Source of the DNA: Deltaproteobacteria bacterium
GTDB lineage: Bacteria; Desulfobacterota; Syntrophia; Syntrophales; UBA2210
DNA length: 44,720 nucleotides
Reading direction: 5' to 3'
Assembly: GCA_019314085.1 (NCBI GenBank)
Contig: JAFCZZ010000004.1
Coordinates: forward strand, 1 to 44,720
The notes beneath the pieces are model-generated. The model was not told the origin of the DNA. It was given only the letters and a program-made list of their open reading frames with translations, and searched no databases. The translations under genes and the position numbers were made by a program. This document shows, piece after piece, positions 20,785 through 43,734 of the stretch; the first letter of the stretch is position 1; each line of letters begins with the position of its first letter.

Positions 20785-20850
20785 AAAAGTACTTTTTATT
20801 TTAGAAAGGTCTCTTTTCCCTTGCTTATAAATATACGTTGTGTTTATACT
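20785..20850 (+). promoter_or_regulatory. Bipartite promoter unit A (divergent variant)
   Basis: The palindrome AAAAGTACTTTT (20785-20796) is followed after 24 bases by TTGCTT (20821-20826), the shared core TATAAATATAC, and TATACT (20845-20850), with an 18-base spacer. It differs from the other five units, which have TTGTGT and a 16-base spacer. No gene of note starts between it and unit B; there is only a 5-codon frame at about 20889 (MHILK) after AAGGGG. Confidence 0.6.
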
Positions 20851-20872
20851 TGGGTTTATAAGCAAACTTCAA
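20843..20872 (-). promoter_or_regulatory. Candidate minus-strand promoter for the head genes
   Basis: On the minus strand TTGAAG (20872-20867) and TATAAA (20848-20843) are 18 bases apart and point to the DUF2213 start at 20746. It overlaps the plus-strand promoter unit at 20785-20850, so the two could exclude each other. Based on pattern only. Confidence 0.35.
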
Positions 20873-20959
20873 CCTAAGGGGCCTGCTATGCATATTCTTA
20901 AATAATTACACGCTGTAAACCTCGCCTGATACCCACCCCCTAAAAATCAGCTTAAGCCT

Positions 20960-21023
20960 AAAAGTACTTTTATTTTAAAAAGGGGGTTTTAGGGGTTGTG
21001 TATAAATATACAAGGTGTATATT
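20960..21023 (+). promoter_or_regulatory. Bipartite promoter unit B
   Basis: The palindrome AAAAGTACTTTT (20960-20971), 24 bases, then TTGTGT (20996-21001), the inverted repeat GTATA-AA-TATAC, and TATATT (21018-21023), 16-base spacer. It points to the gene at 21066. The whole stretch 20747-21065 is non-coding apart from the regulatory units A and B and the opposing candidate promoter. Confidence 0.75.
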
Positions 21024-21065
21024 AAGAACATAGACAAAGCGGCAACGCACAACAAAGGAAAGACG

Positions 21066-21341
21066 ATGACAACGACAATCAAAATCAGCAAATCAGAACT
21101 ACAGGCAGCGATGAACAGCGCGAGCAAATGCGGATTCATGCAGGCAGAGGGGCATGCGATCTCGTTATCCCATGTGGGGAATATTGCGACTACCGAGCAG
21201 GGCGCAACGGATATGAGTCAATACGCCGTCGAGCTGATGAATCTCGAAAATCGCGCAGAGCCTGAACTATCGGCGATGGATTTTGGGGTTATTTCAGAAA
21301 ATGCAGAGGATTGCGGCTTTGATATTGAGTGGGTAGCGTAA
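21066..21341 (+). CDS. Isolated plus-strand hypothetical protein (moron-like)
   Basis: A 91-residue acidic protein (MTTTIKISKSELQAAMNSAS at the start, AEDCGFDIEWVA at the end) of unknown function. It is the only plus-strand gene within the minus-strand virion block and has its own promoter unit (20960-21023), an AAAGGAAAG ribosome site and a hairpin after its stop. Its codons seem less biased to GCC/CCC than those of its neighbours. I chose ATG 21066 since the longer frame starts within the promoter. It behaves like a moron, a separately expressed accessory gene. Confidence 0.75.
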   Translation: MTTTIKISKSELQAAMNSASKCGFMQAEGHAISLSHVGNIATTEQGATDMSQYAVELMNLENRAEPELSAMDFGVISENAEDCGFDIEWVA

Positions 21342-21355
21342 ATAGCTCAGCCCGA

Positions 21356-21377
21356 GGGCCCGGCTTCGGTCGGGCCC
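21356..21377. terminator. UUCG-type hairpin between convergent genes
   Basis: GGGCCCGGC, loop TTCG, GTCGGGCCC: a 9-bp stem with one G-U pair on the plus strand, closed by a stable cUUCGg loop. It stands between the ends of the plus-strand gene (21341) and the head morphogenesis gene (21377). Only a short TAATT follows, so termination may be partial; the stem could also protect mRNA ends. Confidence 0.6.
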
Positions 21378-22369
21378 TAATTCAGCACGCTGCTAGCAGC
21401 CTCTAGCCATCCTGCGGGCATCACGGGGATGGCATTACACCGACATTGATAATCCCCACCAGGGTGGGCATATCTTACGCCTCCCTTTCCAAACGCTACC
21501 GCCGGGGGGTCGCTCCACTTTTGCGTAGTGCCATCTAGCTCTTGATGCGTGGGTCTAACACGCTCGTCTTTGGATGAATCCCAGATATACTCATCAATCC
21601 CCGCATTTACTTGCCTCAGCTCTGTTAGCTCACCTTGCAGCTTGCCAACTTGGTCCCGTGCTATCAGAGCCGCGCGGCTCTTAGACAGGCCAAAGCTTGC
21701 CCGCAAATTCTTAGCTATGGTCTCGTTTCTGAGGCCACCCCGCAGGCCCTCTAAAATCTGAGCCTCTGCCCTGTCGAGGGCTTGGGCCCGTACTGACTTT
21801 ATGAGAGAGGCATTTTGACGTACAAACGCATCTGAGACGGGCCCTAAATAGGCCTCTTGGGATAGCAGAGGCAGCCCGGCAACGCCTACGCCTTCGGATA
21901 CGCCTGCAAGGCTAGAGCCCTGCACACCTAGCATAGAAGCAAATTGGGCGGAGGTCTGCTTTTTATGGGACGTATTGACACCCTCCCACACCGAAGCCGC
22001 AAGAGTTTCGGCTGTTACAGTGGGGCCGGGGGGTGTTAGCGTGGCACGGGTCGTCGTGGTACTAACAGCCGTGGGGCCTGAGCCTGCCCACTCCGCCGTT
22101 GTACCCTCAAGGTCCTCGAAAGTGGCGTGCAGGAAGTCCAAAGAGCTATCCCGCCTTATCCCACGCTCATCCTGGTAGGCCTCTATGAGAGCAGCCCCGC
22201 CGGTTTTCCACTCAGATAAAACCTGAGCTTGCACCGTGGCTAACATACGCATAAGGGCCCGATGGTATTTGAGCCTTTCAGCGTTGGGCCATAAAATGGC
22301 CTTCGTGGCTTGCCGGGGCTTGCGTCTTGCCCCGGTAAAAGCCCGGCGTATTTGGGCCTCTGAGGGCAT
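21377..22369 (-). CDS. Minor head protein, Mu gpF / SPP1 gp7-like
   Basis: A 330-residue protein. The C-terminal 140 residues contain ARLIARDQ-like and TELRQVNAGIDEYIWDSSKD, then ERVRPTHQELDG and GGDYQCRCNAIPVM, the conserved end of phage head morphogenesis domain proteins (Phage_Mu_F). They bind the portal and enter the head. It follows the portal gene, sharing one base. Confidence 0.88.
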   Translation of the reverse strand: MPSEAQIRRAFTGARRKPRQATKAILWPNAERLKYHRALMRMLATVQAQVLSEWKTGGAALIEAYQDERGIRRDSSLDFLHATFEDLEGTTAEWAGSGPTAVSTTTTRATLTPPGPTVTAETLAASVWEGVNTSHKKQTSAQFASMLGVQGSSLAGVSEGVGVAGLPLLSQEAYLGPVSDAFVRQNASLIKSVRAQALDRAEAQILEGLRGGLRNETIAKNLRASFGLSKSRAALIARDQVGKLQGELTELRQVNAGIDEYIWDSSKDERVRPTHQELDGTTQKWSDPPAVAFGKGGVRYAHPGGDYQCRCNAIPVMPAGWLEAASSVLN

Positions 22370-23730
22370 TAGGTAGCGTCGGGCTCAGGTTCGGGGTCAT
22401 CTGTGAGCTTACTCGCGGCGGCGTCTGCGGCCAAGATTTCGGCCCGGGCCTCAACGTCAATCGAGGTATGCGCCGAAAATTCCCCATTACCATAGCGGCT
22501 TAGTGCTACTTCCTCTGGCAAAAGTACCTGTGCAGTTATATAGGCCACGTCCTTATCTGCTGTGAGTTTTTCGATTTCGGCTTGTTCTTTTTCGCTGGTG
22601 TTACGTATTTTGGGCCAGACTACCGAAAAATCTTCGAGGTCTACCCGGGTGTCTTTGGCAATGCTCACCAGATATGCCATACGTTGCACTATGGGGGTGA
22701 AAACGTCATCTTGGTAGGTTTGGGCCTCGCCATCCCACAAATCCAAATCGCTGGCACCTGTGGCGTTCATGCCCGCAGGGCTTTGGCCCATGAGCTTGGT
22801 AACGGGCATACGAGCTGCGGCGGCTAGCCTAAGCATGAATTTATCCAGCACCCCTGGAACGCCTGAGAAGTTATAAGCCTTCCGCTCAAAATCCTCGTTT
22901 TCGGCGTCTACCATGATGGCCCGGCTCACACTCCGGGTTGAATCCATAATCTCCATACGGGTTTGGAGTAAAGTCGAATCCCCAGAGGCCAGTATTTCAG
23001 CCAAATCCTGAATCTTAAAAACACCCTGCGCGGCGTCCGTCATCAGGTGGGCTGTGGCTTGCCACCCGCTTGCAAACTGCACTAAAACATCATGCACCTT
23101 GTGCAATACGCTATCATCCCACCCGCCATTAGCTTTCTTCTGCACCTTCGTGGTACGGGCGCCACCTAGGACCAGCACGCGGGAGCTGTGGATTTTTAAG
23201 CCTATACCCTCTAGGGCTTGTATCTCGTAGGTCTGGACCTTACCAAAGCCCTCTAGGGCCGGGTCTGTTTGGTAGGTGTAGGGCCGGATTTCTTGCTTTG
23301 TGAGCACCGTAAGGAATTTAATGCTTCTGATTTGGGCTTCGTTCACAGGCTCTGAAACGTCCTGCCCGTCATCTATGCCGATATAGAGCACAGCGCCCCC
23401 CAAAACACGGCCCCAAATCGCGGCCTCAAGAGCAGCCCCCTTTAGCCCCAGAGCCTTTAAGGCCTTTTCAATCTTCTGTGCGGCTTCGGTATCTTCAGAG
23501 TCATCTGGCTGGATTTCGGCCCATTTGCGGCTTGCGGATTCGGGCAAGGCTTCACAGATACGGGCGGCTATATCATCCCCCATGTACATGTATTCGAGGG
23601 CCTGTGGTGTGAGTCGGGCCGTATTCTGGAATTGTGTCTGCATAAGCTTATCACGGGCATATGAGCCCAAGCCCGTGGCAAAATTTACAAATGAATCAAA
23701 CCTTGCACCAACGATTTCTTTTAATCTCAT
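22369..23730 (-). CDS. Portal protein, DUF1073-like
   Basis: A 453-residue protein. The motifs ALEYMYMGDDIAARICEALP, GAVLYIGIDDGQDVSEPVNE, RVLVLGGARTT and PVTKLMGQSPAGMNATGASD, then LDLWDGEAQTYQDDV are the pattern of DUF1073 portal proteins, which form the 12-subunit DNA entry ring. Length and position after the large terminase fit. Confidence 0.9.
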   Translation of the reverse strand: MRLKEIVGARFDSFVNFATGLGSYARDKLMQTQFQNTARLTPQALEYMYMGDDIAARICEALPESASRKWAEIQPDDSEDTEAAQKIEKALKALGLKGAALEAAIWGRVLGGAVLYIGIDDGQDVSEPVNEAQIRSIKFLTVLTKQEIRPYTYQTDPALEGFGKVQTYEIQALEGIGLKIHSSRVLVLGGARTTKVQKKANGGWDDSVLHKVHDVLVQFASGWQATAHLMTDAAQGVFKIQDLAEILASGDSTLLQTRMEIMDSTRSVSRAIMVDAENEDFERKAYNFSGVPGVLDKFMLRLAAAARMPVTKLMGQSPAGMNATGASDLDLWDGEAQTYQDDVFTPIVQRMAYLVSIAKDTRVDLEDFSVVWPKIRNTSEKEQAEIEKLTADKDVAYITAQVLLPEEVALSRYGNGEFSAHTSIDVEARAEILAADAAASKLTDDPEPEPDAT

Positions 23731-25184
23731 AAGCTTCCTCTTGCCTCTTGCATTGCCTTTAATTTAGCTCTATACCCCTTCGTTGTCTTTTTGTAAAGGT
23801 ACGCCAGCGCTTGAGTCATTGCATCAACTCTATCATCGGGGCGGCCTGCAATGCCCGTAAATTTAACCAGCTCCTCTACAAAATCCCCGACCCAAGGTGC
23901 AACCGCCGGGTTAGGGATATGTACATTTCCGGCCTCCCACAAAGGTGCAACCGCTTGCGCTCGTACCCACTTGCCACCCTGCGGATTTACGGCAATGATA
24001 CCGGGTATAGAGCCCTTTAGTAGCTCTATGACGGCGGTGCCGTTGGCTTTATCCTCAATCAATTTTGTTTTGGCTTTTGGCCATTTTGCCGACATTGCGA
24101 CGATAGCCCGCATGGTTGCCGCTATCCCCATTTTGTCAGCCACCGAATCTAAGAGATAATACTCCCCGCCCTTGACCAACCAAACCTGGCCCGCAACCGA
24201 ATCTGAGGTTTTCAAATCTTTGAAAGAGCAATCCCAAGACTGTATAATTTTGGTCTTGCGGGCCGGGTACTCGTTCCAGTGCTGTATCCAAGAGCGTTGG
24301 AATAATTCCCCCCCAGGAGGACTTGGCAATTGGTCATGCTGTGCAGCTGCACCACGCGCCCCAAGCTCTTTACGCTGCACTTTTACCGCTTCCTCCGGGA
24401 AACGCTCCGGCCATAAAAGTTCCCCCTCTACCGTCCTAAAATCGACGTGCCCAAGGGAGGTCTCATAGTGCCTTTCGGGGTCATACTTCATTGGGAGGCA
24501 TAGAAGCTCGTAGCCTTGGTCTATCAAGAGCCCAGCTAAATCTGCCTCGTGGAGCCTCTGCATAACCACCACACGGGCCGAATTGGCCACGCTGGTGAGC
24601 CGGGTAGACATGGTTTCATCCCACCACTCAGACGCCTTCGCAAGGGCGTTGCCATCGGCATTCATGAGCCCCGTAACATCCATCGGCTTTAGTGGGTCGT
24701 CCGCTACCTGAATATCAGCATGGTCCCCCGTAATCGCACCTCCCACCGATGTGGCCATACGCATACCCGCGCTATCGTTTACGAATTTATCGGCCCCCCA
24801 AGGTTCCGCCCGTTCGATAGGCCATCGGGCTTGGAACCAAGCAGACTCGATAAGGCGCCTTGTGCGGGTATTGTCCCGGCGGCTCAAAGTGGCTGAATAC
24901 GAGGCGTAGATAAATTTAGTTTGCGGGCGCTGGCTCCACTCCCATGCAGGCCAAAATACACAGACCAAAAGGCTTTTCATGGCCCCGGGCGGGATGTTAA
25001 TCACGAGCCTTTTTATATCCCGGCGGGATACGGCCTCAAGGTGGGCGCAAATTACGTCTATATGCCAGTTATGGGAGTATGGGCGGGCAGGTTCCACCTG
25101 TGGCCATGCTAGTTTGACAAATTCGGCTAGGCTTCGACTGGCAAGCTCCCGCTCTGCATTAATTAGCCTGTGCGAATCCGCCAC
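23727..25184 (-). CDS. Terminase large subunit
   Basis: A 485-residue DNA packaging motor. Walker A is at 64-71 (IPPGAMKS), the Walker B acidic pair at about 162-163 (VADDP), and the RNase H-like nuclease starts with D318 (IIQSWDCSFKD), with a late GRPDDRVDAMTQA for the last acidic residue. It couples ATP hydrolysis to packaging and cuts concatemers. It overlaps the portal gene by 4 bases. Confidence 0.93.
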   Translation of the reverse strand: MADSHRLINAERELASRSLAEFVKLAWPQVEPARPYSHNWHIDVICAHLEAVSRRDIKRLVINIPPGAMKSLLVCVFWPAWEWSQRPQTKFIYASYSATLSRRDNTRTRRLIESAWFQARWPIERAEPWGADKFVNDSAGMRMATSVGGAITGDHADIQVADDPLKPMDVTGLMNADGNALAKASEWWDETMSTRLTSVANSARVVVMQRLHEADLAGLLIDQGYELLCLPMKYDPERHYETSLGHVDFRTVEGELLWPERFPEEAVKVQRKELGARGAAAQHDQLPSPPGGELFQRSWIQHWNEYPARKTKIIQSWDCSFKDLKTSDSVAGQVWLVKGGEYYLLDSVADKMGIAATMRAIVAMSAKWPKAKTKLIEDKANGTAVIELLKGSIPGIIAVNPQGGKWVRAQAVAPLWEAGNVHIPNPAVAPWVGDFVEELVKFTGIAGRPDDRVDAMTQALAYLYKKTTKGYRAKLKAMQEARGSL

Positions 25185-25187
25185 GGC

Positions 25188-25830: not shown

Positions 25831-26016
25831 TCACTTGCTTTCTGGCTCCACTTCGGGGGCACCTACGGAGTCACAGGCAAATTGCAGGGCCTGCTCTAAG
25901 AAATCCCCCATGCTGATTTCTTGCTCCAGAGCTGCAAGCTTTAGGCGCTTGTGGGTGCTTGGCCTCAAGTTGAAGCTAAAAACCTTTTTTCCATTTTTTA
26001 CATTGCGTACAGTCAT
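25831..26016 (-). CDS. Small ribbon-helix-helix-like DNA-binding protein
   Basis: A 61-residue protein. A basic start (RNVKNGKKVF) leads into one strand (FSFNLRPSTHKRLKLAAL) and two helices with EISMGDFLEQALQFA, as in CopG/Arc-type ribbon-helix-helix regulators. It is the first gene of the minus-strand arm, next to the origin, and could regulate the late operon or assist packaging. No sharp Shine-Dalgarno sequence is visible. Confidence 0.6.
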   Translation of the reverse strand: MTVRNVKNGKKVFSFNLRPSTHKRLKLAALEQEISMGDFLEQALQFACDSVGAPEVEPESK

Positions 26017-26027
26017 ACAGCACGATT

Positions 26028-26058
26028 AATATACTTTTGGTAAAAAAGCAAGTGTAAA
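26028..26058 (-). promoter_or_regulatory. Weak candidate promoter for the terminase operon
   Basis: On the minus strand TTTACA (26058-26053) and TATATT (26033-26028) lie 19 bases apart. The start of transcription would fall almost at the ATG of the gene at 26016. The spacing is long, so this is tentative. Confidence 0.3.
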
Positions 26059-26094
26059 AACCCCAAAAAAGAGCAAAAAACAAAAAGCCTACAA

Positions 26095-26373
26095 TTACAG
26101 GCACTTACAAAGATTACAACCTAGTTACAGCAAATCAGGCCAAATTACAGCGAATTACAGCGCCACCCCTAATGATTACAGCACGTTACAGCATTACAGC
26201 AAAAATGACCTGAAACATATTAATAATACTAATATATACTCTATACTATCTATATTAAATAATCCTTATTAAATTAGATGATTTGCTGTAATGCTGTAAA
26301 CCCTACGGAATTGCAGAGCTTTCTTGCTGTAATCTTGCTGTACATCGCTGTAACACCTATAGGTTTGCTGTAA
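26095..26373. other. Candidate replication origin with opposed iterons
   Basis: The left array has TTACAGC at 26125, 26145, 26155, 26176, 26186 and 26194, and degenerate TTACAGG/TTACAAA/TTACAAC at 26095, 26105 and 26114; most spacings are near 10 or 20 bases, so the sites face one side of the helix. The right array has the reverse complement GCTGTAA at 26285, 26293, 26326, 26347 and 26367, with GCTGTAC at 26337. Between them lies a long AT-rich stretch (about 26207-26283), a likely unwinding element. The primase-helicase gene follows. This stretch of about 470 bases (26017-26483) contains no credible gene. Confidence 0.8.
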
Positions 26374-26483
26374 CTACACCTATGGTAAATAAATAAAGTG
26401 GTAAAAACCCACGGTTTCGGCCCTTGGTATTTATTTAATTCTTTTCTCTTGCCTAAAATCTCAAGTTCTGCTAGCTGTAAGAG

Positions 26484-28882: not shown

Positions 28883-29911
28883 ATGCAACCCTTTAACGTA
28901 CTTAGTCTTTTTGATGGAATATCCGGGGGCCAAATAGCCCTGGAAAAAGCCGGGATTGAGGCCACCAACTATCTGGCGAGTGAGATAGATAGAAGGGCAA
29001 TCGAGGTAACACAGGCGAATTTTCCGGATACAATACAAATCGGGGATGTTAAAGATGTGGATATCCCCCCGGACGTCAATATAGATTTAATAATGGGGGG
29101 TTCCCCCTGCCAGTCTTTCTCTTTTGCCGGCAATCGAAAGGGTATGGCAACCTCCTGCGACATTGAGATAACAAACCTGGACCAATATCTGGAGCTAAAA
29201 GCTGAGGGCTTCGAGTTTCAAGGTCAATCCTATCTATTTTGGGAGTATGTCCGGCTTTGTTACCAAGTGAATCCTAAATATTTCCTACTCGAGAACGTCA
29301 GAATGGCCAAAAAATGGGAGAAAATTATTAGTGATACTTTGGGAGTAGAGCCTATTTATATAGACTCTAACACCAAATCAGGCCAAAACCGTAAGAGGTT
29401 GTATTGGACGAATATCCCTGTAAACAGGGAAGCCTTTAGAGACCCTAGCCCCACCAAAATCCGGGATATATTGGAAGATTCAGATTGTGACTTTGCAGAA
29501 ACCACCCTCCTGGATTTTGACAGCTCAAAAAGGATAATAAAAGAGCACTTCAAAACGGGCCATCTAGATGGCCACCTGGCGGATTGCATATTCACAGAGA
29601 GATTTTTCAAGAAAAAAATAGGCACCCTTGCCTATAAAAAAGCCCTTTCCCAGCTCAAAAGCCTTGAGCACAAGTCGAATTGCCTCACAACTTCCGGCCA
29701 AAATATCGCTAATAGTGGGTCTACAAATATCTTCTACATAAATCTCGAGGGCAAATTGAAAATCAGGCCCTTGAACCCTACAGAATGTGAGAGGCTGCAA
29801 ACCGTCCCGGAGGGGTATACCGACCATTGTTCACGCAACCTAAGGATTTCGATGCTGGGCAACGGTTGGACGATTGATGTCATAGCTGAGATTTTGAGAG
29901 GAATAAAATGA
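28883..29911 (+). CDS. DNA (cytosine-5) methyltransferase, orphan
   Basis: A 342-residue enzyme that should methylate cytosine C5 in a specific site using S-adenosylmethionine. Motif I is SLFDGISGG (8-16), the catalytic PCQ has C76 (GGSPCQSFS), the ENV motif is at 137-139 (LLENV), motif VIII is QNRKRLYW (168-175) and motif X is LGNGWTIDVI. No restriction enzyme gene is nearby, so it probably protects phage DNA or alters expression. The site between PCQ and ENV contains a modest insertion. Confidence 0.92.
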   Translation: MQPFNVLSLFDGISGGQIALEKAGIEATNYLASEIDRRAIEVTQANFPDTIQIGDVKDVDIPPDVNIDLIMGGSPCQSFSFAGNRKGMATSCDIEITNLDQYLELKAEGFEFQGQSYLFWEYVRLCYQVNPKYFLLENVRMAKKWEKIISDTLGVEPIYIDSNTKSGQNRKRLYWTNIPVNREAFRDPSPTKIRDILEDSDCDFAETTLLDFDSSKRIIKEHFKTGHLDGHLADCIFTERFFKKKIGTLAYKKALSQLKSLEHKSNCLTTSGQNIANSGSTNIFYINLEGKLKIRPLNPTECERLQTVPEGYTDHCSRNLRISMLGNGWTIDVIAEILRGIK

Positions 29912-30186: not shown

Positions 30187-30464
30187 AAAGCCAAGCTAAA
30201 GAGCGCCTAAAGCTGGCGGTAATGACCCTTGACGCCATGAAAGAAGACATAGCAGCCCAAAGGAACCACCTAGGGCTAGACCCCGTTACAGGAGAGACCC
30301 GTATCTTAAGCCGACTTCAAGAAGAAATGAGGGACTTACCTGAAGTCGAAGACAAAGTAGGGGCTACGGTGGCCATTGCATGGAGCCTAGCGGCCTTCTA
30401 CGACTCCCCAAAAGCCATGCAGGCCGTGTATCATATGGGGGTCGTGCACGGCCTTTTAATGTAA
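30183..30464 (+). CDS. Small helical protein, tandem paralogue 2
   Basis: A 93-residue protein that opens MKSQAKERLKLAVMTL and ends AMQAVYHMGVVHGLLM, parallel to the gene before it. Identity is limited to the two ends and spacing, so the duplication is old. Its stop codon overlaps the palindrome of promoter unit C by 2 bases. Confidence 0.75.
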   Translation: MKSQAKERLKLAVMTLDAMKEDIAAQRNHLGLDPVTGETRILSRLQEEMRDLPEVEDKVGATVAIAWSLAAFYDSPKAMQAVYHMGVVHGLLM

Positions 30465-30517
30465 AAGTACTTTTATTTACGATTAGGGGTTGTGTATAAA
30501 TATACAGGGTGTATAAC
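30463..30517 (+). promoter_or_regulatory. Bipartite promoter unit C
   Basis: The palindrome AAAAGTACTTTT (30463-30474), 15 bases, then TTGTGT (30490-30495), the GTATA-AA-TATAC inverted repeat, and TATAAC (30512-30517), spacer 16. A 41-base stretch starting at 30481 is identical to that of unit E at 34181. It drives the gene at 30547. Confidence 0.75.
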
Positions 30518-30546: not shown

Positions 30547-30846
30547 ATGAGCCTAGAAATCACAAACACAATCAGAAACCAAATTGGAAGCCGCGCCCTT
30601 TACATGTTAGGTGCGCAAAAATTGGGTGGGCATAAATCAGGTTTTTCTTTTCGCTTTCGTGGTTGCCAGACTCTGAATCATTGCAAAATCACGCTGAACA
30701 GCCTTGATACCTACGATATGGAATTCTGCAAGATTGGCCGCGCTCCCCATTTCAAAATCAGCAACAAGATTGAGAAGCCCGGGCTTTATGCTGACATGCT
30801 GCACAAGGCCATAGAGCAGGCTACAGGCCTTTACACCTCACTCTAA
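30547..30846 (+). CDS. Conserved phage hypothetical protein
   Basis: A 99-residue protein. The pattern LGAQKLGGHKSGFSFRFRG, then HCKITLNSLDTYDMEFCKI and ATGLYTSL, recurs in phage genomes as a short protein of unknown function with an alpha/beta look. It follows promoter unit C with a GGAG ribosome site and is followed by a stable hairpin. Confidence 0.8.
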   Translation: MSLEITNTIRNQIGSRALYMLGAQKLGGHKSGFSFRFRGCQTLNHCKITLNSLDTYDMEFCKIGRAPHFKISNKIEKPGLYADMLHKAIEQATGLYTSL

Positions 30847-31279: not shown

Positions 31280-32174
31280 AAAGACAGCCCATCAACTCGA
31301 AGTAGAAGAAAAAAGAAACGCCTGGCTTCAAGACCTCAAAGCGGGCGATTTGGTAATCGTTGTGGAGCCCTTGCGGGATAGCCACCCCTTTGAAATAAAA
31401 CTCATAGAGGACGGTGGAATCTATCTAGGCTTTGGTCACGGCACCGCCGCATTTTCCCAAAAAACCGGTATGGGTCAAGGGTTCTTTGGCACCAATCCCC
31501 GCCCTTATTTGGAGGAAGCCACACCCAAAGCCCTTGCAGCTATCAAGGCCCCCCCTGTACCTTGGATGAGGCCCCATAACACCCCAGCGACACAAAACCC
31601 CGGACGTGGCCTCGCGGCACTGGCAGCCGCAGCCATACTCAAAAAGGAGAACACCGTGGGAAGCACCCTCCCCGCAATCAATACACTACTTGACCGCGAA
31701 GAATCCAAAACTAAGGCCGAAGCCCTCAAGGCACTTTTACAGGCCGTCGATACTTACCAGGAGGCTTGTGCCCCGAAGCCTGAACCCGAGCCGGAGCCCG
31801 AGCCCTTGAAGTGGACCCCACCCCCGGGGGACTTCACAATCCTAAGTGATTGCACCCTCACAGGGCAGAAATTGACAGCGGGGGACGAATACCGCCTTGC
31901 AGGCTGTGAGCGGTATCAAGAGGATACCACCAAAAGGGACGCCGCAGAGCAGCTACAAGGCCAACTCTTGCGCGCCCGCCGGGCGGAGCTTTGCCCGGAC
32001 TACGTTCCCGACTTTTCAACGTTAGATAAAAAGTGCCATCATATGCAGCTAGGTACGGGGGAGTGGGATATGGATTACAACGTGGAGTGGAAAACCCCCG
32101 GCGTGGTCTATTTCCCAGAGGCCGAAGCCCGGAAAGTACTTTCTGAATTGCAAAGCGGGTTTTTGAGCATTTAG
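31272..32174 (+). CDS. GD-motif hypothetical protein 2, long form
   Basis: A 300-residue protein. I chose ATG 31272, which overlaps the upstream stop by 8 bases; the longer frame runs back through that gene. Residues 19-32 (WLQDLKAGDLVIVV) repeat the paralogue's start. A Pro/Glu tract (PEPEPEPEPL) divides it from a C-terminal domain with a DFTILSDCTLTG strand and PGVVYFPEAEARKVL. Near the 3' end lies the palindrome of promoter unit D. Function is unknown. Confidence 0.7.
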   Translation: MIEKTAHQLEVEEKRNAWLQDLKAGDLVIVVEPLRDSHPFEIKLIEDGGIYLGFGHGTAAFSQKTGMGQGFFGTNPRPYLEEATPKALAAIKAPPVPWMRPHNTPATQNPGRGLAALAAAAILKKENTVGSTLPAINTLLDREESKTKAEALKALLQAVDTYQEACAPKPEPEPEPEPLKWTPPPGDFTILSDCTLTGQKLTAGDEYRLAGCERYQEDTTKRDAAEQLQGQLLRARRAELCPDYVPDFSTLDKKCHHMQLGTGEWDMDYNVEWKTPGVVYFPEAEARKVLSELQSGFLSI

Positions 32175-32205
32175 GGCTTGTGTATAATTATACAGGGTGT
32201 ATATT
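32132..32205 (+). promoter_or_regulatory. Bipartite promoter unit D
   Basis: The perfect palindrome GAAAGTACTTTC (32132-32143) lies inside the preceding gene; 34 bases on, TTGTGT (32178-32183), the core GTATAATTATAC (a full palindrome here) and TATATT (32200-32205), spacer 16. The predicted start of transcription is within about a base of the ATG at 32212. Confidence 0.75.
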
Positions 32206-32211
32206 AGAACA

Positions 32212-32376
32212 ATGGAAAACATCAAAACAAAGACCGACGCGAACAACGAAAGCATAAGCCGTGGTTGGTACCAGAACACAGACAAGACCTTCACCGCCTT
32301 GACTTATGCCGAATCCAAAGACTTTAAGACCCAGAAAGGGGCCGAAAAATGGTTAGCGAAAAGAGGCATAAAATGA
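32212..32376 (+). CDS. Small hypothetical protein, possibly leaderless mRNA
   Basis: A 54-residue frame read directly from sequence (starts MENIKTKTDANNESISRGW, ends AEKWLAKRGIK). The ATG lies 7 bases after the -10 element of unit D, so the message would have almost no leader, and no ribosome site is visible. It overlaps the next gene by 4 bases (ATGA). The WYQNTDKTFTALTYAESKDF stretch could form a small sheet. Function is unknown. Confidence 0.65.
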   Translation: MENIKTKTDANNESISRGWYQNTDKTFTALTYAESKDFKTQKGAEKWLAKRGIK

Positions 32377-33942: not shown

Positions 33943-34182
33943 ATGCAACTCGAAACCCTGGCCATACTTAATGACCTCAAAGAAACCAACAAAGCCGCCG
34001 TAAACGTCCAGCGACTTGCTGAGAACATGCGCAAGCAAGGCCTGAAAGCTCGTAGCGTCTACCTCCGGGGTATGCTTATAGGGGCCTCCGCCGGACTTTT
34101 TGGCTTGGCTAATGCTCTTTTTGATGTGGCCGAAAAGCTCAAGGCTGAAATAAAAGAGACCGAAAGTACTTCTAAGGGCTGA
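33943..34182 (+). CDS. Small helical protein
   Basis: A 79-residue protein with a central mildly hydrophobic helix (MLIGASAGLFGLANALFDVA) between charged helices. It may touch the membrane or form a bundle. Unknown function. Its 3' end holds the palindrome of promoter unit E. Confidence 0.7.
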   Translation: MQLETLAILNDLKETNKAAVNVQRLAENMRKQGLKARSVYLRGMLIGASAGLFGLANALFDVAEKLKAEIKETESTSKG

Positions 34183-34217
34183 TTAGGGGTTGTGTATAAA
34201 TATACAGGGTGTATAAC
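34162..34217 (+). promoter_or_regulatory. Bipartite promoter unit E
   Basis: The imperfect palindrome GAAAGTACTTCT (34162-34173), 16 bases, then TTGTGT (34190-34195), GTATA-AA-TATAC and TATAAC (34212-34217), spacer 16. Bases 34181-34221 are identical to 30481-30521 of unit C. It drives the gene at 34247. Confidence 0.75.
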
Positions 34218-34246: not shown

Positions 34247-34528
34247 ATGACAGACCCAAAAGAGCCCGACACAGAGGCCCTGAAGATTACCTTCGACGCG
34301 GCAGAGGTTACGGAGTGCATCCAGAGCACGAAGGCCCAACGACTACAAGAGGGCCTTTCAGAGCTTAAACCGTCCGAAGCACTTGCGACCTTCAAACATA
34401 TGCTGGATACCTGTGCGCCCGGGGCCCTGCTGATAACCGAAACCGGGCTAGAAATCACCCTCGAAGACCATTCAATCCTTGGGCACTATTTGTGCGGGGC
34501 GAGAATGGGGGAGTATTACGTAAAATGA
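34247..34528 (+). CDS. Small acidic hypothetical protein
   Basis: A 93-residue acidic protein with LKITFDAAEVTECIQ and FKHMLDTCAPGALLITETGL. It is the first gene behind promoter unit E, with a GGAGACG ribosome site. No family recognised. Its acidity and early promoter would suit an inhibitor of a host DNA-binding protein, but this is only a guess. Confidence 0.7.
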   Translation: MTDPKEPDTEALKITFDAAEVTECIQSTKAQRLQEGLSELKPSEALATFKHMLDTCAPGALLITETGLEITLEDHSILGHYLCGARMGEYYVK

Positions 34529-34972: not shown

Positions 34973-35565
34973 AACCAGAAGAGAAACACCTTGACCCCGC
35001 AACCCTTCGTTGGGTGGCCGATAACGTACCCGGCGAGCCCTCTTGGATTGCCCTTAGGGGTTTTGCAACTGGCCTTAGAGACTTGGCCGCAGAAATTGCC
35101 ACCGCCCGCAAAACGGACTTGGAGACCGCCGAAGATTTACAAAAGGGTTTTCTCCCGTGCCCCCTCACGGTGTTGGGTGTCCTGCCCGATTGCCCCCTAC
35201 CCGAAGGCTTCAAGGTCGTGGGCATTGTGCATGATGAAGGCTTCAAGGTCGTGGGCATTGTGCATGATGAAGTGCTCCTAGAGGGGCTAAAACCTCTAAC
35301 CAAAAAGGCCCGGCGGGAGCTTAAAGAGAACCTTTTCGGCGGCCCGGGGAATATGCTAGCCGCCGCTCCGGAGGGGGCCAACGTGCCATCACCAACAGTA
35401 AAGAGGCCGTTGATTCAGGGGGAAATAAAAGACTATGCACCCCCTGAAGATTTCAAGGTGGGTGGCGGACCAGAGCCTGAGCCCACAGAAACCCCCTGTG
35501 ATGAATGCGGCGAAGCTGTGCCCATCAAGTATTACCTGTGCCGTACCTGTGGACAAGAACAATGA
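34969..35565 (+). CDS. Hypothetical protein with zinc ribbon and a fresh tandem repeat
   Basis: A 198-residue protein. Residues about 79-100 contain the 11-residue unit EGFKVVGIVHD twice in exact tandem, from a perfect 33-base duplication. The C-terminus has CDEC and CRTC pairs, a zinc ribbon. Similar ribbons occur in replication or transcription adaptors. It is coupled to the nuclease gene by ATGA. Confidence 0.7.
   Translation: MKPEEKHLDPATLRWVADNVPGEPSWIALRGFATGLRDLAAEIATARKTDLETAEDLQKGFLPCPLTVLGVLPDCPLPEGFKVVGIVHDEGFKVVGIVHDEVLLEGLKPLTKKARRELKENLFGGPGNMLAAAPEGANVPSPTVKRPLIQGEIKDYAPPEDFKVGGGPEPEPTETPCDECGEAVPIKYYLCRTCGQEQ
35203..35268 (+). repeat. Perfect 33-base tandem duplication
   Basis: The 33-base unit at 35203-35235 (starts GAAGGCTTCAAGG) is repeated exactly at 35236-35268. 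It keeps the frame. Lack of any difference implies a recent event or ongoing slippage. Confidence 0.95.
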
Positions 35566-39215: not shown

Positions 39216-39220
39216 GATTC

Positions 39221-39268: not shown

Positions 39269-39282
39269 AAGAGAGAAAGGTA

Positions 39283-39762
39283 ATGAGTTTATTTAATGGT
39301 ATGGGAAGTGCAAGCGCTACAGGTTCAGGCGTCTATTTTAACTCTAATCACAACTACCTTTGCAAGGTGCTGTGCCTCAAAATCATCCAGAGCCGCAGTA
39401 ACGATAATATGTTCGTGGCAGAAATGGAAGTTATCGAGAGTGATGACCCCGAAAGGGGCCCAGGGTCTTGCCCTGCATGGGTTGTAAATTTCAAGCACGA
39501 TAGTGCCTTGGGCAATATCAAGGGCCTTTTGGGGGCTCTGAATGGTGTTAACCCCAACGAAGTTGAGGCCCTCAATGCCCTTTTTTCTGAAGTAAATGAA
39601 AAGGGGGAAACGGTGGATATTTCGGTTGACATTTCAGAGTACGCGGTATCAGAGGCCAATCCCTTGGCAGGTAACACAGTGCGCTTGCGCACCGAAGGCA
39701 TAAAAACCCGGGCCGGTGGGGATTTCACCAAACACCTCTGGCGACCCACCGACGAGGCATAA
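39283..39762 (+). CDS. Putative ssDNA-binding protein (OB-fold-like)
   Basis: A 159-residue protein. The layout (SGVYFNSNHNYLCKVLCLKI, then FVAEMEVIESDDPERGPGSC, LGNIKGLLGALNGV and NPLAGNTVRLRTEG) is like a group of phage proteins found beside polymerase genes and thought to bind ssDNA. The C-terminus is acidic only in DEA. A GAAAGG ribosome site precedes the ATG. Confidence 0.65.
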   Translation: MSLFNGMGSASATGSGVYFNSNHNYLCKVLCLKIIQSRSNDNMFVAEMEVIESDDPERGPGSCPAWVVNFKHDSALGNIKGLLGALNGVNPNEVEALNALFSEVNEKGETVDISVDISEYAVSEANPLAGNTVRLRTEGIKTRAGGDFTKHLWRPTDEA

Positions 39763-39783
39763 GACAGCCCACCCCGTAAGCAG

Positions 39784-39809
39784 AAAAGGGGGCCCACGTG
39801 CCCCCTTTT
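39784..39809 (+). terminator. Intrinsic terminator before the polymerase gene
   Basis: AAAAGGGGGC, loop CCACGT, GCCCCCTTTT: a 10-bp perfect stem whose T side serves as the U tract. It lies 22 bases after the stop at 39762 and just before the polymerase ribosome site, so read-through must feed the polymerase gene. Confidence 0.7.
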
Positions 39810-39825
39810 CTATGGAGCCTACACC

Positions 39826-41718
39826 GTGAAAACCTACGCAATCGATACAGAAACGGACCTAATCCGGCTAGGCTGCAAAGCCCCCCCGCTGGTATGCGTC
39901 CAAATCACCGAAGACACGGCCCCCGACGAAGGGGTTATCTTTTTACACTCAGAGCCCGGACTAAAAGGTTTTATAAAGTCGCTGCTTTTATCGGCCCTGA
40001 AGGGCCAAGCCCGGCTAATCTTTCACAATGCTGCTTTCGATTTGGCCGTGTTCGCAGCTAAATGGCCCGACCTTATGCCGCTAATCTTCGCCGCCTTGGC
40101 CAAGGATGGGGCCATAACTGATACCATGATAAGGCAAAAGCTTTTAGATATAGCCGCCGGGGAGTTTCGCGGCAAATATGGCCACGACGGCACCTTTATA
40201 AAATACGGCTATGGCTTGGGGCATTTATCAGAGCGCCATCTTGGTATGGTACTGGATAAAACCTCGAAATGGCGAACCGGCTATTTCGAACTAGCCGAAA
40301 CCCCGGTTACAGAATGGCCGGCAGAGGCCCGAGAGTACGCCGAAAATGACCCCGTGGCCACCTATGGGGTTTGGGCCCACCAAGAAAACAATCTTGCAGA
40401 CTACCCCTCAGGTGTCCTAGACGACGAGCCCCGGCAAGTGCGCAAGGCTTGGGCCCTGTTTTTGGCCGAAGCTTGGGGTATGAAAACAGACCCCGAAGCG
40501 GTGGACGCACTAGAAGCCGAAGCCGTGGCCGAAATAGTGCGCCTGCAAGCCTACTTGCACGGGCTAGGGCTCTTGACCCTCAAAAAAGATGGCAGCTATA
40601 GCCGCAAGCTCAAGCTAGCCCGAGAGCGCATGATAGCAGCCTGTGAGGCGTCGGGGGTGGAAGTACCCACAACTGATAAAGGCAACGTAAAATTAGACGC
40701 CGAAGCCATGGCCCTAAGCGGGGATGTGGGGCTGATTGCTCTGCAAGAGTACGGGGTAGCACAAAACATCCTCAGCAAAGATGTTACGGCCTTGAGAAGC
40801 CCTATTATACATCCCCGGTTTGATTCGCTTGTGGGTACGGGCCGCACGTCTGCAAGTGGCTACAACACGCAAAACCCACGCAAAAAGGTGGGTGTTCGTG
40901 AGTGCTTCGTGCCCCGAAAAGGTAAGGTCTATCTTAACTGTGATTATGACAAGGCCGAATTACACACCCTTGCCGAGACCTGCTTAGGCCTTGTAGGCTA
41001 TTCCAGGCTTGCTGAGGCCCTGAATGCCGGGCGAGACCCTCACCTAGACTACGGGGCTCTCATAGAGAGCATTGACCTCGAATGGGCCCGGGAAAACCCC
41101 AAACACCCCACGGTTAAGCAGGCCAGGCAACGTGCAAAAGCTGGAAACTTCGGTATCCCCGGAGGTATGGGGGCCAAGGGCTTTCAGGCCTACGCAAAGG
41201 GCTACGGGCTTGAATTAGACATGACAGAAGCCCGGCATATTTTCGACTCCTATTTTGAGGCATGGCCAGAAGTCCGGGAGTTTCACACGTGGATTAAAGC
41301 TCAGTGTACAGGCTACGGTGGAGAGGGCCTCTTTCAAATGCCCTACTCAGGGCGCTACCGCGGCGGTGTGCGTTTCACCCAAGCGGCAAACCTCTTTTTT
41401 CAGGGCCCCGCCGCCGATGGTGCAGGCTTGGCCCTATTCGCCGTGGCCTATGCCCAATACTGTGACACTGAGAGCCCTCTTTTTGGGTCCCGCACGGTCA
41501 ATTTTATTCATGATGAATTAATGCTAGAGGTAGACGAAGGCAAGGCCGCCGCCGCCGCCGCAGCAGAATTAGAGAGAGTAATGGTGGAAGAATTCACCCG
41601 AGTAGTGCCCAACGTGCCGCCCCGGGCCACGGCTTGTCTTTCCCGGCGCTGGTCAAAGGGTGCGGAGCCTGTTTTCAATGCCGAAGGCACCTTGATACCG
41701 TGGGAGCCTGAGTTATGA
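39826..41718 (+). CDS. DNA polymerase, family A
   Basis: A 630-residue replicative polymerase. The 3'-5' exonuclease domain has DTET (motif I, near residue 5), FHNAAFDLA and the YAENDPVATYG motif. The polymerase domain has motif A NCDYDKAELHTLAE, motif B RAKAGNFGIPGGMG and motif C NFIHDELMLEV. There is no 5' nuclease domain. The start is GTG 39826 with GGAG upstream. Next to a clamp, helicase and resolvase it forms the replication set. Confidence 0.93.
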   Translation: MKTYAIDTETDLIRLGCKAPPLVCVQITEDTAPDEGVIFLHSEPGLKGFIKSLLLSALKGQARLIFHNAAFDLAVFAAKWPDLMPLIFAALAKDGAITDTMIRQKLLDIAAGEFRGKYGHDGTFIKYGYGLGHLSERHLGMVLDKTSKWRTGYFELAETPVTEWPAEAREYAENDPVATYGVWAHQENNLADYPSGVLDDEPRQVRKAWALFLAEAWGMKTDPEAVDALEAEAVAEIVRLQAYLHGLGLLTLKKDGSYSRKLKLARERMIAACEASGVEVPTTDKGNVKLDAEAMALSGDVGLIALQEYGVAQNILSKDVTALRSPIIHPRFDSLVGTGRTSASGYNTQNPRKKVGVRECFVPRKGKVYLNCDYDKAELHTLAETCLGLVGYSRLAEALNAGRDPHLDYGALIESIDLEWARENPKHPTVKQARQRAKAGNFGIPGGMGAKGFQAYAKGYGLELDMTEARHIFDSYFEAWPEVREFHTWIKAQCTGYGGEGLFQMPYSGRYRGGVRFTQAANLFFQGPAADGAGLALFAVAYAQYCDTESPLFGSRTVNFIHDELMLEVDEGKAAAAAAAELERVMVEEFTRVVPNVPPRATACLSRRWSKGAEPVFNAEGTLIPWEPEL

Positions 41719-42194
41719 TTCTATCAATAGACCCCGGAGTGCATAAAACGGCTTGGGCCCTGTGGGGCAAAGATGGGCTACAAGAGGCAGGGTACCACGG
41801 AACCGACGCCGTGGGGAGGTTTTTCCCAGAGTATGGAACCCACCTTTTTGTTACTGTGGAAGTCCCCCAAATCTATAAACACTCAAAGGGGGACCCTCAA
41901 GACCTTATAAATCTAGCCTTTGCAGCGGGGCAAGCCTCTGGGAATAGGGCAATCTTTAAGGTGGACCCCAAAAAGTGGAAGGGGCAGGCCCCGAAAACTA
42001 AAAAGCTCGAAGATTATCTTATCCACAAATGGAACCTGAGAGCCCTAGAGGACGCAGAGCAAGGCGTTTATTTACAGGCCCTTTCAGGTATAGCGGCCTC
42101 TTTAAGGCACAATATCGCCGACGCCGTAGGCATAGGCCTTTGGAAACTACAAAGGGGGCATTACGCCCGGGGGCTTCAAAATGCCAAGCCCTGA
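41715..42194 (+). CDS. RuvC-like Holliday junction resolvase
   Basis: A 159-residue RNase H-fold nuclease. Acidic residues expected for RuvC: D6 (ILSIDPGVHKTAWALW), E49 (VTVEVPQIY) and a late HNIADAVGIG with H132 and D136. It should cut branched DNA before packaging. It overlaps the polymerase stop by 4 bases. Confidence 0.85.
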   Translation: MILSIDPGVHKTAWALWGKDGLQEAGYHGTDAVGRFFPEYGTHLFVTVEVPQIYKHSKGDPQDLINLAFAAGQASGNRAIFKVDPKKWKGQAPKTKKLEDYLIHKWNLRALEDAEQGVYLQALSGIAASLRHNIADAVGIGLWKLQRGHYARGLQNAKP

Positions 42195-42375
42195 TAATAG
42201 GATTATGGCAGAGCTTACACAAGTTCTACATTATGGGGCTTGGACGGTTGAGGAGCTGGCAACGCTTTTTCAAATGCCAAAAAGAAGGGTATATTATTAC
42301 CTCGTGGCCGTAAAAAGGACACCTTTAGATTTGGTTCGTACTAATAAAGGGTACGAAATCCGCCGGGCGGGTTGA
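42181..42375 (+). CDS. Small helix-turn-helix-like protein
   Basis: A 64-residue protein. AWTVEELATLFQMPKRRVYY reads as a helix-turn-helix, with a basic recognition helix, followed by a short wing. ATG 42181 overlaps the resolvase gene by 14 bases; ATG 42205 (MAELTQ) after AGGAT is an alternative start. It lies just before the Xre-type gene and may regulate it. Confidence 0.65.
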   Translation: MPSPDNRIMAELTQVLHYGAWTVEELATLFQMPKRRVYYYLVAVKRTPLDLVRTNKGYEIRRAG

Positions 42376-42399
42376 CTTTGAATAAACAAAGCGTATAAG
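42372..42399 (+). promoter_or_regulatory. Sigma70-like promoter of the Xre-type gene
   Basis: TTGACT (42372-42377) and TATAAG (42394-42399), 16 bases apart. A second pair, TTGAAT (42378) and TATAGT (42402), spaced 18, overlaps it. The start of transcription would fall at about 42406, next to the ATG at 42408. This promoter is unlike the six bipartite units and is closer to the usual consensus, so it may be used by host polymerase at once. Confidence 0.6.
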
Positions 42400-42407
42400 G
42401 TTATAGT

Positions 42408-42644
42408 ATGACTATTGGAAAAAGAAAGCTAAACGAAGCTCTAGCCCGTAAGGGCTGGACTTTGGCCCAAGCCGCCGAAGCCCTTGACACGGCCTCAGAG
42501 GGCGGGGCCATTAGGACCCAGAATGTTATGTTTTGGCGAAAAGGCCGCCGTACCCCCACCCTAGCGCAAGCCGTTGCGCTGCAAAACGTTTTTGGCATAA
42601 GCCCCAAGGCGTGGTTCAAAAAGGACGAAGAAAATGAGACTTAA
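42408..42644 (+). CDS. Xre/Cro-type regulator
   Basis: A 78-residue protein with a Cro/CI-like helix-turn-helix: KLNEALARKGWTLAQAAEAL, then IRTQNVMFWRKGRRTPTLAQ and an ALQNVFGISPKAWF end. The mRNA should be nearly leaderless, as for lambda CI from its maintenance promoter. A candidate for the factor that controls the six promoter units, but there is no direct evidence. Confidence 0.8.
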   Translation: MTIGKRKLNEALARKGWTLAQAAEALDTASEGGAIRTQNVMFWRKGRRTPTLAQAVALQNVFGISPKAWFKKDEENET

Positions 42645-43689
42645 AAGACGAAAGCCGGGCGCTACCTATCCTCTGGATGTTTGCGCTGTGTCGAAGTGCC
42701 CCCACCCTACCCTGGTTGTGGTGGGTGAAGGGGTCTCTTTCCCCGCAGAAAAGGGAGAAGTACCTCTCTGCGACTTACACCACGCCGAAGACCAAGGCCA
42801 AACGGCCACGCTAGTAACCCCGGAGGGCTTGCAAGAGACCCCCCCGCCCACCTATGCAGGCCTGAGCCTTAAACCTTTAGCACAGGGTGGACGGTACCTT
42901 GTGGACGTTTGTGCTGTGTCGGAGTGCTATGCCCCCATGGGTATCGTGCTAACTGCTGGGGCTTTCTTTCCGCTTGATAAGGGAGTAATCCCACTTTGTT
43001 GGCCCCATGATTTTGAGGCACAGCACCTTGCTTTGGGCTTACAGGAGACGGCCCCCGCAGCTTTAGAGCTACCGCCCCCGGAGGTTATCCCCACCGAAGA
43101 AATCCCATCCCCGGAGGCTATGGCGCTTGAAAAAGCGGAATTCGCCAAAGAGGAGCTTGTAGGGATTAAGTCTCTTGAGATTGACAGCCAAGAGGATTTG
43201 GATTTCGCAAACGAAATCTTGGCCGAAGTCAAAAAGAAATTCAAGGAAATCGATGCCGAAGAAAAAGGTGTAACCCAGCCCATTAATGCCTCTTTAAAGA
43301 AAATCCGGGATTGGTTCCGGCCCGCAAAAACAGCATACACCGAAGCTGAAAAGATTCTAAAGAGCAAGATTCTCGCAGGTATCGAAGCGATTCAGGCCCG
43401 ACAAGATGCCGCGCTTTTAGCCCTGCAAGAGGCCCACAAAGAGCAGAACGTAGCTGCAACGGCTTCGGCTTTGGCCGTGGTGCAAGAGTCGGCCATAGAG
43501 CAGCCCTCCAATGTCTCAGTGATTAAAAAATGGGCTTATCGGGTTGTGGATTTTGCCCTAGTGCCCCGGGAGTATTGTGCCCCCTCCCCTGAGCTTTTGA
43601 AGGCCGCCGTTAAGGCCTCCGATGGTACGATTAAAATCCCCGGGGTTGAGATTTTCGAAGAAAGTACTTTATCCCAAAGAAAATTATAA
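42634..43689 (+). CDS. Protein with twin zinc knuckles and coiled coil
   Basis: A 351-residue protein. Two N-terminal copies of one motif, VCAVSKC...VPLCDLHH and VCAVSECY...IPLCWPHD, each with C-x4-C and C-x2-H, suggest duplicated zinc sites. Residues about 165-290 are a long coiled coil. The end (VVDFALVPREYCAPSPELLK, then IKIPGVEIFEE) matches a frequent phage protein C-terminus found beside recombination genes. Function is unproven. Confidence 0.72.
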   Translation: MRLKRRKPGATYPLDVCAVSKCPHPTLVVVGEGVSFPAEKGEVPLCDLHHAEDQGQTATLVTPEGLQETPPPTYAGLSLKPLAQGGRYLVDVCAVSECYAPMGIVLTAGAFFPLDKGVIPLCWPHDFEAQHLALGLQETAPAALELPPPEVIPTEEIPSPEAMALEKAEFAKEELVGIKSLEIDSQEDLDFANEILAEVKKKFKEIDAEEKGVTQPINASLKKIRDWFRPAKTAYTEAEKILKSKILAGIEAIQARQDAALLALQEAHKEQNVAATASALAVVQESAIEQPSNVSVIKKWAYRVVDFALVPREYCAPSPELLKAAVKASDGTIKIPGVEIFEESTLSQRKL

Positions 43690-43734
43690 AATAAAGGCTC
43701 TGGGGGTTGTGTATAAATATACAGGGTGTATAAA
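43660..43734 (+). promoter_or_regulatory. Bipartite promoter unit F
   Basis: GAAAGTACTTTA (43660-43671), 35 bases, then TTGTGT (43707-43712), GTATA-AA-TATAC and TATAAA (43729-43734), spacer 16. It opens the operon of small genes that runs over the junction to 2281. Confidence 0.75.

Follow-up and report, generated by a model that had tools for sequence, protein, structure and literature searches.

A family of phage promoters with an operator-like inner dyad and a second palindrome at variable distance upstream

Why would the promoters of a phage carry two unlike palindromes each, one inside the promoter and the other at a variable distance upstream? This question is raised by contig JAFCZZ010000004.1 (assembly GCA_019314085.1, Deltaproteobacteria bacterium), whose 44,720 bp are the window analysed here, and in which a sequence-only reading had proposed six bipartite early promoters on the plus strand, denoted here S1 to S6 (at 20785, 20960, 30463, 32132, 34162 and 43660). 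The window, with a G+C content of 52.5%, carries a 114-bp direct terminal repeat, and so most likely represents the entire genome, about 44.6 kb, of a tailed phage. The arrangement that we favour, with a probability of about 0.42, is a regulon whose promoters each have two operators, in which the inner operator would mediate repression and a second regulator at the outer one would aid a weak promoter.

The outer element is a palindrome of the form AAAGTACTTT, located at all six coordinates of the sequence-only reading. The 8-mer AAGTACTT occurs six times in the 44,720 bp, each time at one of these sites, so that the earlier impression of a form absent elsewhere was correct; a scatter of the palindrome over many unrelated places, which would have counted against the proposal, did not emerge from the genome scan. 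Within one mismatch of AAAGTACTTT the window holds a single further place, AAAGTTCTTT at 3539, and the count at two mismatches (26, against a shuffle mean of 19.8) is of the size that chance gives; one of these matches, at 26028 near the start of the ribbon-helix-helix gene in Table 1, was left unused for that reason. The hexamer AGTACT alone occurs 12 times, approximately as expected from the length, and the invariant, GTAC-centred part of the palindrome, AAAGTACTT, is present in 6/6 sites. A de novo search of the 65-nt stretches that precede the cores returned AAAGTACT as the best common 8-mer, shared by all six against a maximum of two of six in 30 shuffles, which upholds the idea of a second, sequence-specific upstream site. 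Three of the palindromes (S4, S5 and S6) lie inside the 3′ ends of upstream genes, in two different reading frames, and that of S3 overlaps a stop codon. Conservation of protein therefore fails to explain them, and constraint acting on the DNA itself would be the plain reading.

Downstream of the palindrome, five sites (S2 to S6) contain a full core consisting of TTGTGT, 16 bp, and TATAAC, TATATT or TATAAA, together with a TGTATAAATATACA dyad. These cores are near-identical, with 0, 0, 0, 2 and 3 mismatches to GTTGTGTATAAATATACAGGGTGTATAA, in agreement with a phage-wide promoter set. The core of S1 (20820) has 8 mismatches, as many as the next site, which is the likely promoter of an XRE-type gene (42371); its −35 reads TTGCTT, the left TGTATA arm is absent, and its best −10 is found at an 18-bp spacer. 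As S1 and S2 lie in a 69-nt direct repeat of 72% identity, S1 is probably a decayed duplicate of S2, and the six promoters originally proposed comprise five with a full core and a degenerate one at 20785. Longer mutual similarity is also seen between S3 and S5. The proposed −10 consensus, TATAAY or TATATT, describes four of the full cores but not S6, which reads TATAAA. With −35 matches of 3/6 and −10 matches of 5/6 at 16 bp, the five sites resemble sigma-70-type promoters, and a stricter sigma-70 consensus scan of the window listed none of the six. The core contains three half-sites, TGTATA-AA-TATACA-GGG-TGTATA; the inner TGTATAAATATACA dyad extends over the last bases of the −35 and over the spacer, and the third half-site overlaps the −10.

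The distances from the palindrome centre to the −35 are 30.5 (S1), 30.5 (S2), 21.5 (S3), 40.5 (S4), 22.5 (S5) and 41.5 bp (S6), exactly as counted in the sequence-only reading, and correspond at 10.5 bp per turn to phases of 0.90, 0.90, 0.05, 0.86, 0.14 and 0.95. They do group at about two, three and four turns, although "whole helical turns" is a loose description of phases running from 0.86 to 0.14. A Rayleigh-type test over the six sites gave P values of 0.012 (10.5 bp), 0.007 (period 10–11) and 0.02 (period 6–15), and without S1, the duplicate of S2, of 0.035, 0.020 and 0.046–0.061. Helical phasing of the outer palindromes is thus no more than suggestive.

Between the two dyads of the five full cores the centre distances are 31, 32, 40, 50 and 51 bp. 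Assuming +1 at 7 nt after the −10, the outer centres are estimated at −55.5, −56.5, −64.5, −74.5 and −75.5, that is, 0.57, 0.48, 0.71, 0.76 and 0.67 turn away from the CRP class I position of −61.5 at 10.5 bp per turn. In a study of CRP activation (PMC6301791), strong activation was seen from −61.5, −71.5 and −72.5 and moderate activation from −81.5 and −82.5; the effect was weak (about 2- to 6-fold) between −63.5 and −65.5 and absent at −66.5 and −76.5, and −55 and −75 were not among the positions assayed. None of the estimated centres coincides with the CRP-like positions (−61.5, −71.5/−72.5, −82.5), and −64.5 is still a weak position for CRP in that series (PMC6301791). A plain CRP-like geometry fits poorly, because the centres are a quarter to half a turn out of register; a protein that sits on the major-groove side at its dyad, or contact with a protein bound at the spacer instead of with polymerase, would fit better. 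At the centre of their dyads, helix-turn-helix (HTH) dimers look onto the minor groove and ribbon-helix-helix dimers onto the major groove, which lies half a turn away.

The inner dyad has counterparts in relatives of the phage, which were recruited via the primase (26–43% identity) and comprise 64 records or 65 sequences, some being fragments or several from one record. In G007, G010, G014 and G029 there are 4, 5, 7 and 5 promoter-like sites (reverse-strand palindrome hits excluded), in which a TTGACN-like −35 and a TATANT-like −10 are mostly 17 bp apart and the spacer holds CGTCA-N4-TGACG or near variants. G001 has a full GATAGC-N2-GCTATC dyad at promoter-like sites 28128, 37361 and 41062, half-kept at 29534 and 32967. 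Nine GCATACTAAGTATGC sites (one of them a variant) occur in G020, the record of L158–L162, eight in four divergent pairs; a ATACCGGTAT palindrome stands upstream of 2/9 of these promoters at distances 10 bp apart, too few to count. The operator-like character ascribed to the spacer dyad is therefore borne out by six relatives, which have multi-copy promoters of their own and dyads within or next to the promoter boxes, in comparable positions; these dyads are unlike one another and unlike those of the window. An automated search for promoter families passed 7 of the 65 relative sequences besides the window, a lower bound since it missed G007 and G014 despite their visible families. Promoter-like repeats of other kinds were also seen, namely TTATGNGTTC direct repeats about 10–11 bp apart in L124 (2287–6349) and a repeated, leaderless promoter-like TTGACA...TTATC...ATGA without evident dyad in L073 (4650–7765) and L070 (4506–5402).

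The outer palindrome behaves differently from the inner dyad in this comparison. Exact copies of AAAGTACTTT, mismatches disallowed, were found in 0/64 relative records, some of them fragments, and AAGTACTT in 4/32 relative loci (L065 twice, L074, L078, L079), and the core of the window accompanies it in none of them. When the 65 nt ending 14 nt before each dyad match were compared (some reverse-strand sites included), an upstream element common to all sites was found in none of the six relatives tested, unlike in the window. The best exact 8-mer was shared by 2/5 sites in G007, 2/7 in G010, 3/9 in G014, 2/5 in L081, 2/6 in G001 and 2/6 in L072, with a shuffle maximum of 2 each; the best 10-mer with one mismatch was shared, in the same order, by 3/5, 3/7, 5/9, 2/5, 3/6 and 3/6, with shuffle maxima of 2, 2, 3, 2, 3 and 2. 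On this latter measure G007, G010, G014 and L072 are slightly above the shuffles, and the common upstream stretch of G014 lies, by eye, largely in terminator-like hairpins. The inner dyad is accordingly one instance of a recurring design that varies in sequence from phage to phage, and the outer palindrome appears here only, among the relatives examined.

A gene for a likely reader of the inner dyad is placed recurrently as well. A match to the Holliday-junction resolvase is present in 34/65 relative sequences, and a small HTH gene adjoins it in 15 (by eye, a few near-duplicate sequences included): ten Cro/YdaS-like genes in G001, G003, G007, G014, G026, L124, L126, L138, L147 and L153, and five winged-helix-like ones in G018, G019, G020, L141 and L155. 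In the other 19 resolvase-bearing sequences no HTH gene was recognised there by eye, or the stretch was cut. Among the slot proteins scanned (9/15 and the window's), PHROG matches were to transcriptional repressor families for G001 (1.5e-5) and G003 (1.6e-4) and to a late transcriptional activator for G020 (3.1e-4), the remainder being weaker, of function unknown or none. The HTH gene of G001 lies between the resolvase and exonuclease genes, where the window holds two small HTH genes, and the G001 dyad copy at 41062 ends 8 nt before it. On the strength of the relatives' promoter dyads and of the HTH gene in a shared slot, the inner dyad most likely serves a regulator encoded by the phage as its operator. 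The winged-helix protein of the window is 16–31% identical to the five slot winged-helix proteins, and its XRE protein 11% identical to the G001 slot protein. That two HTH genes in the slot match two palindromes per promoter is suggestive, in a single case.

Three candidate regulators are encoded in the window (Table 1), which with dyads at five cores and both HTH and ribbon-helix-helix genes has the general features of a phage repressor/operator regulon. The single-sequence AlphaFold model of the 42181 product is H-H-H-E-E with a predicted local distance difference test score (pLDDT) of 79; its fold matches in the PDB are mostly winged-helix proteins, 0/1371 of them reaching an E value of 0.001, and the protein has no PHROG family at 0.001 and a Pfam PF0610-like_N match far under cut-off. 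The 42408 product matches PHROG transcriptional regulator/repressor families, with Pfam HTH_3 just under cut-off, and its model is all-helical, with a pLDDT of 82 in the best model and 48–59 in the other four. At the XRE gene, the consensus scan lists an overlapping TTGAAT-18-TATAGT, ending one base before the ATG, instead of the likely promoter of Table 1. The region 42335–42399 shows a second two-dyad layout with sequences other than those of S1–S6, in which the spacer dyad CTTTG-N6-CAAAG is accompanied by TTCGTAC-N9-GTACGAA about 26 bp upstream of the −35.

In the reading that we favour, a phage DNA-binding protein at the inner operator would cover −35, spacer and −10 and shut the promoter, the binder being most likely the winged-helix or XRE protein of the 42181–42644 slot. 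The outer operator, 21.5–41.5 bp upstream of the −35, would be bound by a second, different dimeric regulator which, standing on roughly one helix face, would help polymerase at a weak promoter (−35 3/6, 16-bp spacer). The first candidate for this role would be a ribbon-helix-helix protein like 25831, with its body over the major groove at the dyad; such a protein is favoured because the palindrome is short and its phase a quarter to half a turn off CRP class I, and the Arc/HicB-like 25831 itself is fitting but unproven. A repressor at the inner dyad is the best-supported step, given its position over −35, spacer and −10 and its analogues in relatives, and the weak −35 with its 16-bp spacer speaks for a helper at the outer site. 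What was observed is that the palindromes are confined to these sites within the genome, together with the core, the spacing and the relatives' comparable dyads and slot; what we infer is protein binding, the identity of the binder, activation and timing. A fuller version, improbable as a whole, would have two phage proteins reading every promoter, one for inner shut-off and the other a ribbon-helix-helix activator two to four turns upstream, whose major-groove seat would shift its positions relative to the CRP type; the inner operator would change its sequence from phage to phage while the regulator slot stays fixed, and the outer layer would have been gained in this lineage.

Several observations weigh against a regulon of this kind. 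If 20785 and 20960, a duplicate pair, count as a single site, the phasing becomes weak. The five full cores have a −35 of 3/6, as against at least 4 in 20/21 CGTCA-group promoters of relatives (19 with 17-bp spacers, the −35 being the best of three spacers) and 5/6 in the XRE promoter of the window, but the last three −35 bases are common to the dyad, and the weakness may simply reflect operator constraint. Moreover, the promoter-like sites of G001 also have a poor −35 (by eye) without an outer site, and no shared upstream element above shuffle level. AAAGTACTTT lies directly before none of the regulator candidates, so that autoregulation lends no support. Finally, at the sensitivity used, a search of 5.8 billion proteins for homologues of the XRE and ribbon-helix-helix proteins (37 and 1 candidates scored) returned only the window itself.

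The same geometry could arise if both proteins repressed, the AAAGTACTTT binder and the inner-dyad binder touching along one DNA face with a spacing set by protein contact. Such cooperative repression, doubtful though close behind the favoured reading, draws on dyad centres lying approximately three, four or five turns apart, on the resemblance of the relatives' single-dyad promoters to repressor sites, and on outer centres out of register with the CRP class I optima (PMC6301791). At 10.5 bp per turn, however, the phase drifts (2.95, 3.05, 3.81, 4.76 and 4.86 turns), two palindromes unlike in sequence demand two proteins or two specificities, and the weak −35 points to a need for help.

Proteins of the host might instead occupy one or both sites, with a DnaA-type or LexA-like core, AAAGTACTTT as the site of a host activator, and genes that respond to the host cell cycle or to DNA damage. 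TTATACACA, a perfect DnaA-type box, occurs only at the five full cores and on neither strand elsewhere in the window, and a factor present in the cell from the outset would suit genes that are required early. The core also reads GTGT-N8-ACAG, which agrees with CTGT-N8-ACAG in 7/8 letters at four cores and 6/8 at S2, although this is an E. coli motif that may not be the host's, and LexA motifs vary widely among bacterial groups (PMC8565304 for both). Such a reading is unlikely: the relatives' dyads (CGTCA-N4-TGACG, GATAGC-N2-GCTATC and GCATACTAAGTATGC) match neither box, no LexA operator is kept at their comparable promoters, where the dyads are unrelated, and one of these dyads precedes a phage HTH gene. 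Less probable still is an outer element that is no regulator site at all, but either a stretch of A/T-rich DNA, UP-like or bent, or a passenger duplicated along with its promoter cassette. The A/T-rich flanks at three sites and the longer similarity within the pairs S1/S2 and S3/S5 would agree with it, but the GTAC-centred part is invariant in 6/6, the palindrome stays constant as its distance varies, and three of the copies fall within coding sequences that are unrelated and read in two frames.

Table 1. Coordinates of the promoter elements, downstream genes and candidate regulators in the window
Feature	Position	Strand	Remarks
S1 upstream palindrome AAAAGTACTTTT	20785..20796	+	before degenerate core
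S1 degenerate core	20821..20850	+	TTGCTT, 18 bp, TATACT; left dyad arm absent
S2 upstream palindrome AAAAGTACTTTT	20960..20971	+	
S2 core	20996..21023	+	TTGTGT, 16 bp, TATATT; spacer dyad 20999-21012
91-aa gene after S2	21066..21341	+	no match in 18 relative sequences
61-aa Arc/HicB-type ribbon-helix-helix protein, candidate regulator	25831..26016	-	PHROG Arc-like repressor; Pfam HicB above cut-off
S3 upstream palindrome	30463..30474	+	overlaps upstream gene's stop codon
S3 core	30490..30517	+	TTGTGT, 16 bp, TATAAC; spacer dyad 30493-30506
99-aa gene after S3	30547..30846	+	one match (L073, 32%) among 18 relative sequences
S4 upstream palindrome GAAAGTACTTTC	32132..32143	+	inside upstream gene's 3′ end
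S4 core	32178..32205	+	TTGTGT, 16 bp, TATATT; spacer dyad 32181-32194
54-aa gene after S4, leaderless (start inferred)	32212..32376	+	ATG at predicted transcription start
S5 upstream palindrome GAAAGTACTTCT	34162..34173	+	inside upstream gene's 3′ end
S5 core	34190..34217	+	TTGTGT, 16 bp, TATAAC; spacer dyad 34193-34206
93-aa gene after S5	34247..34528	+	
64-aa winged-helix-like protein, candidate regulator	42181..42375	+	slot after Holliday-junction resolvase
XRE gene promoter (likely)	42372..42399	+	TTGACT, 16 bp, TATAAG; CTTTG-N6-CAAAG dyad; without AAAGTACTTT
78-aa XRE-type HTH protein, candidate regulator	42408..42644	+	resolvase slot
S6 upstream palindrome GAAAGTACTTTA	43660..43671	+	inside 3′ end of upstream exonuclease gene
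S6 core	43707..43734	+	TTGTGT, 16 bp, TATAAA; spacer dyad 43710-43723
76-aa gene after S6	43768..43998	+	

Small genes sit downstream of the promoter units, as previously noted, at 29–42 nt from core end to start codon for S2, S3, S5 and S6 and at 6 nt for S4; they would be early genes judging from gene order only. At S4 (32200–32214) transcription is predicted from the A of the ATG, giving a leaderless mRNA, and start codons likewise follow directly on promoter-like repeats in L073 and L070 and on several of those in G020. Within the head operon, which is on the minus strand, the stretch 20785–21341 holds a gene on the plus strand together with two promoter copies in tandem, an arrangement similar to a moron cassette. 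With one match for 30547 as the exception, the genes directly after the promoters have no homologue among the 18 relative sequences compared, nor do the methylase, the clamp and the three regulator candidates, whereas many replication and structural genes do. The minus strand carries terminase, portal, head and tape-measure genes, and the plus strand genes for primase-helicase, C5 cytosine methylase, sliding-clamp-like protein, nuclease, helicase, DNA polymerase, resolvase and exonuclease.

Other repeats were observed in the genome. The interval 26125–26480, adjoining the primase gene, holds 12 of the genome's 20 TTACAGC 7-mers as iterons, six plus-oriented to the left of an A/T-rich stretch and six minus-oriented to its right, and is likely to be a bidirectional replication origin. 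A 107-nt direct repeat of 84% identity (43964–44381) duplicates a small gene in tandem, a 33-nt perfect tandem duplication lies inside coding sequence (35203–35268), and a 25-nt perfect inverted repeat has its arms 3.6 kb apart in two genes (39362–39386 and 43007–43031).

Searches for the unit elsewhere gave no match. The bipartite pattern has 0 hits in viral_contigs; the exact core likewise has 0 in viral_contigs and a stricter bipartite pattern 0 in genome_contigs, where no helicase relatives were found either. Neither the S3 unit, searched by short-word blastn against phage and plasmid records, nor the whole window, searched by megablast against phage records, had a match. As these sets may omit near relatives of the window, absence elsewhere does not amount to uniqueness. 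No description of a two-palindrome design was found in titles and abstracts, subscription journals lying mostly beyond that search.

Six sites in one genome constitute a natural spacing series for the distance and the DNA face of a regulator. Furthermore, a group of uncultivated phages appears to swap promoter operators repeatedly while the regulator slot stays fixed, which makes regulator–operator co-evolution directly testable. Among known systems, the class I promoters of E. coli CRP are alike in having an upstream dyad at several positions about one turn apart and a weak −35, which the upstream site would support in the phage. The phage sites differ in lying a quarter to half a turn off the CRP optima (PMC6301791). 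They also differ in their length (10–12 bp against 22 bp), in the second dyad within the promoter, and in that no activator is known. The middle and late promoters of Mu (Mor, C) and the late promoters of P2 (Ogr) also have an upstream dyad, from which a small phage protein activates with host polymerase. The Ogr site is at about −55. The Mor dyad is centred at −43.5, overlapping the −35 (PMC4287176). The phage units described here, in contrast, spread their upstream sites over 20 bp and have an inner dyad as well.

The stoperators of mycobacteriophage L5 resemble these sites in that many operator-like copies are spread across one phage genome. Stoperators are asymmetric, numerous and also found away from promoters. 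They are described as 13-bp elements that take part in regulating transcription (PMC3203893). The window, in contrast, has six symmetric sites, all at a promoter core. Cluster K start-associated sequences (SAS) and their extended form (ESAS) likewise form repeats in two parts that precede non-structural genes of phages, and the extension is an inverted repeat; SAS typically lie 3–7 bp before start codons, with a proposed role in translation initiation (PMC3203893). The units described here differ in containing a sigma-70-like promoter in place of a 13-bp repeat at 3–7 bp, and even at S4, where the core is 6 nt from the start codon, the repeat is a 28-bp promoter. Phage operators and upstream sites are already well known; the new part is the two-dyad design with its variable, roughly turn-wise spacing.

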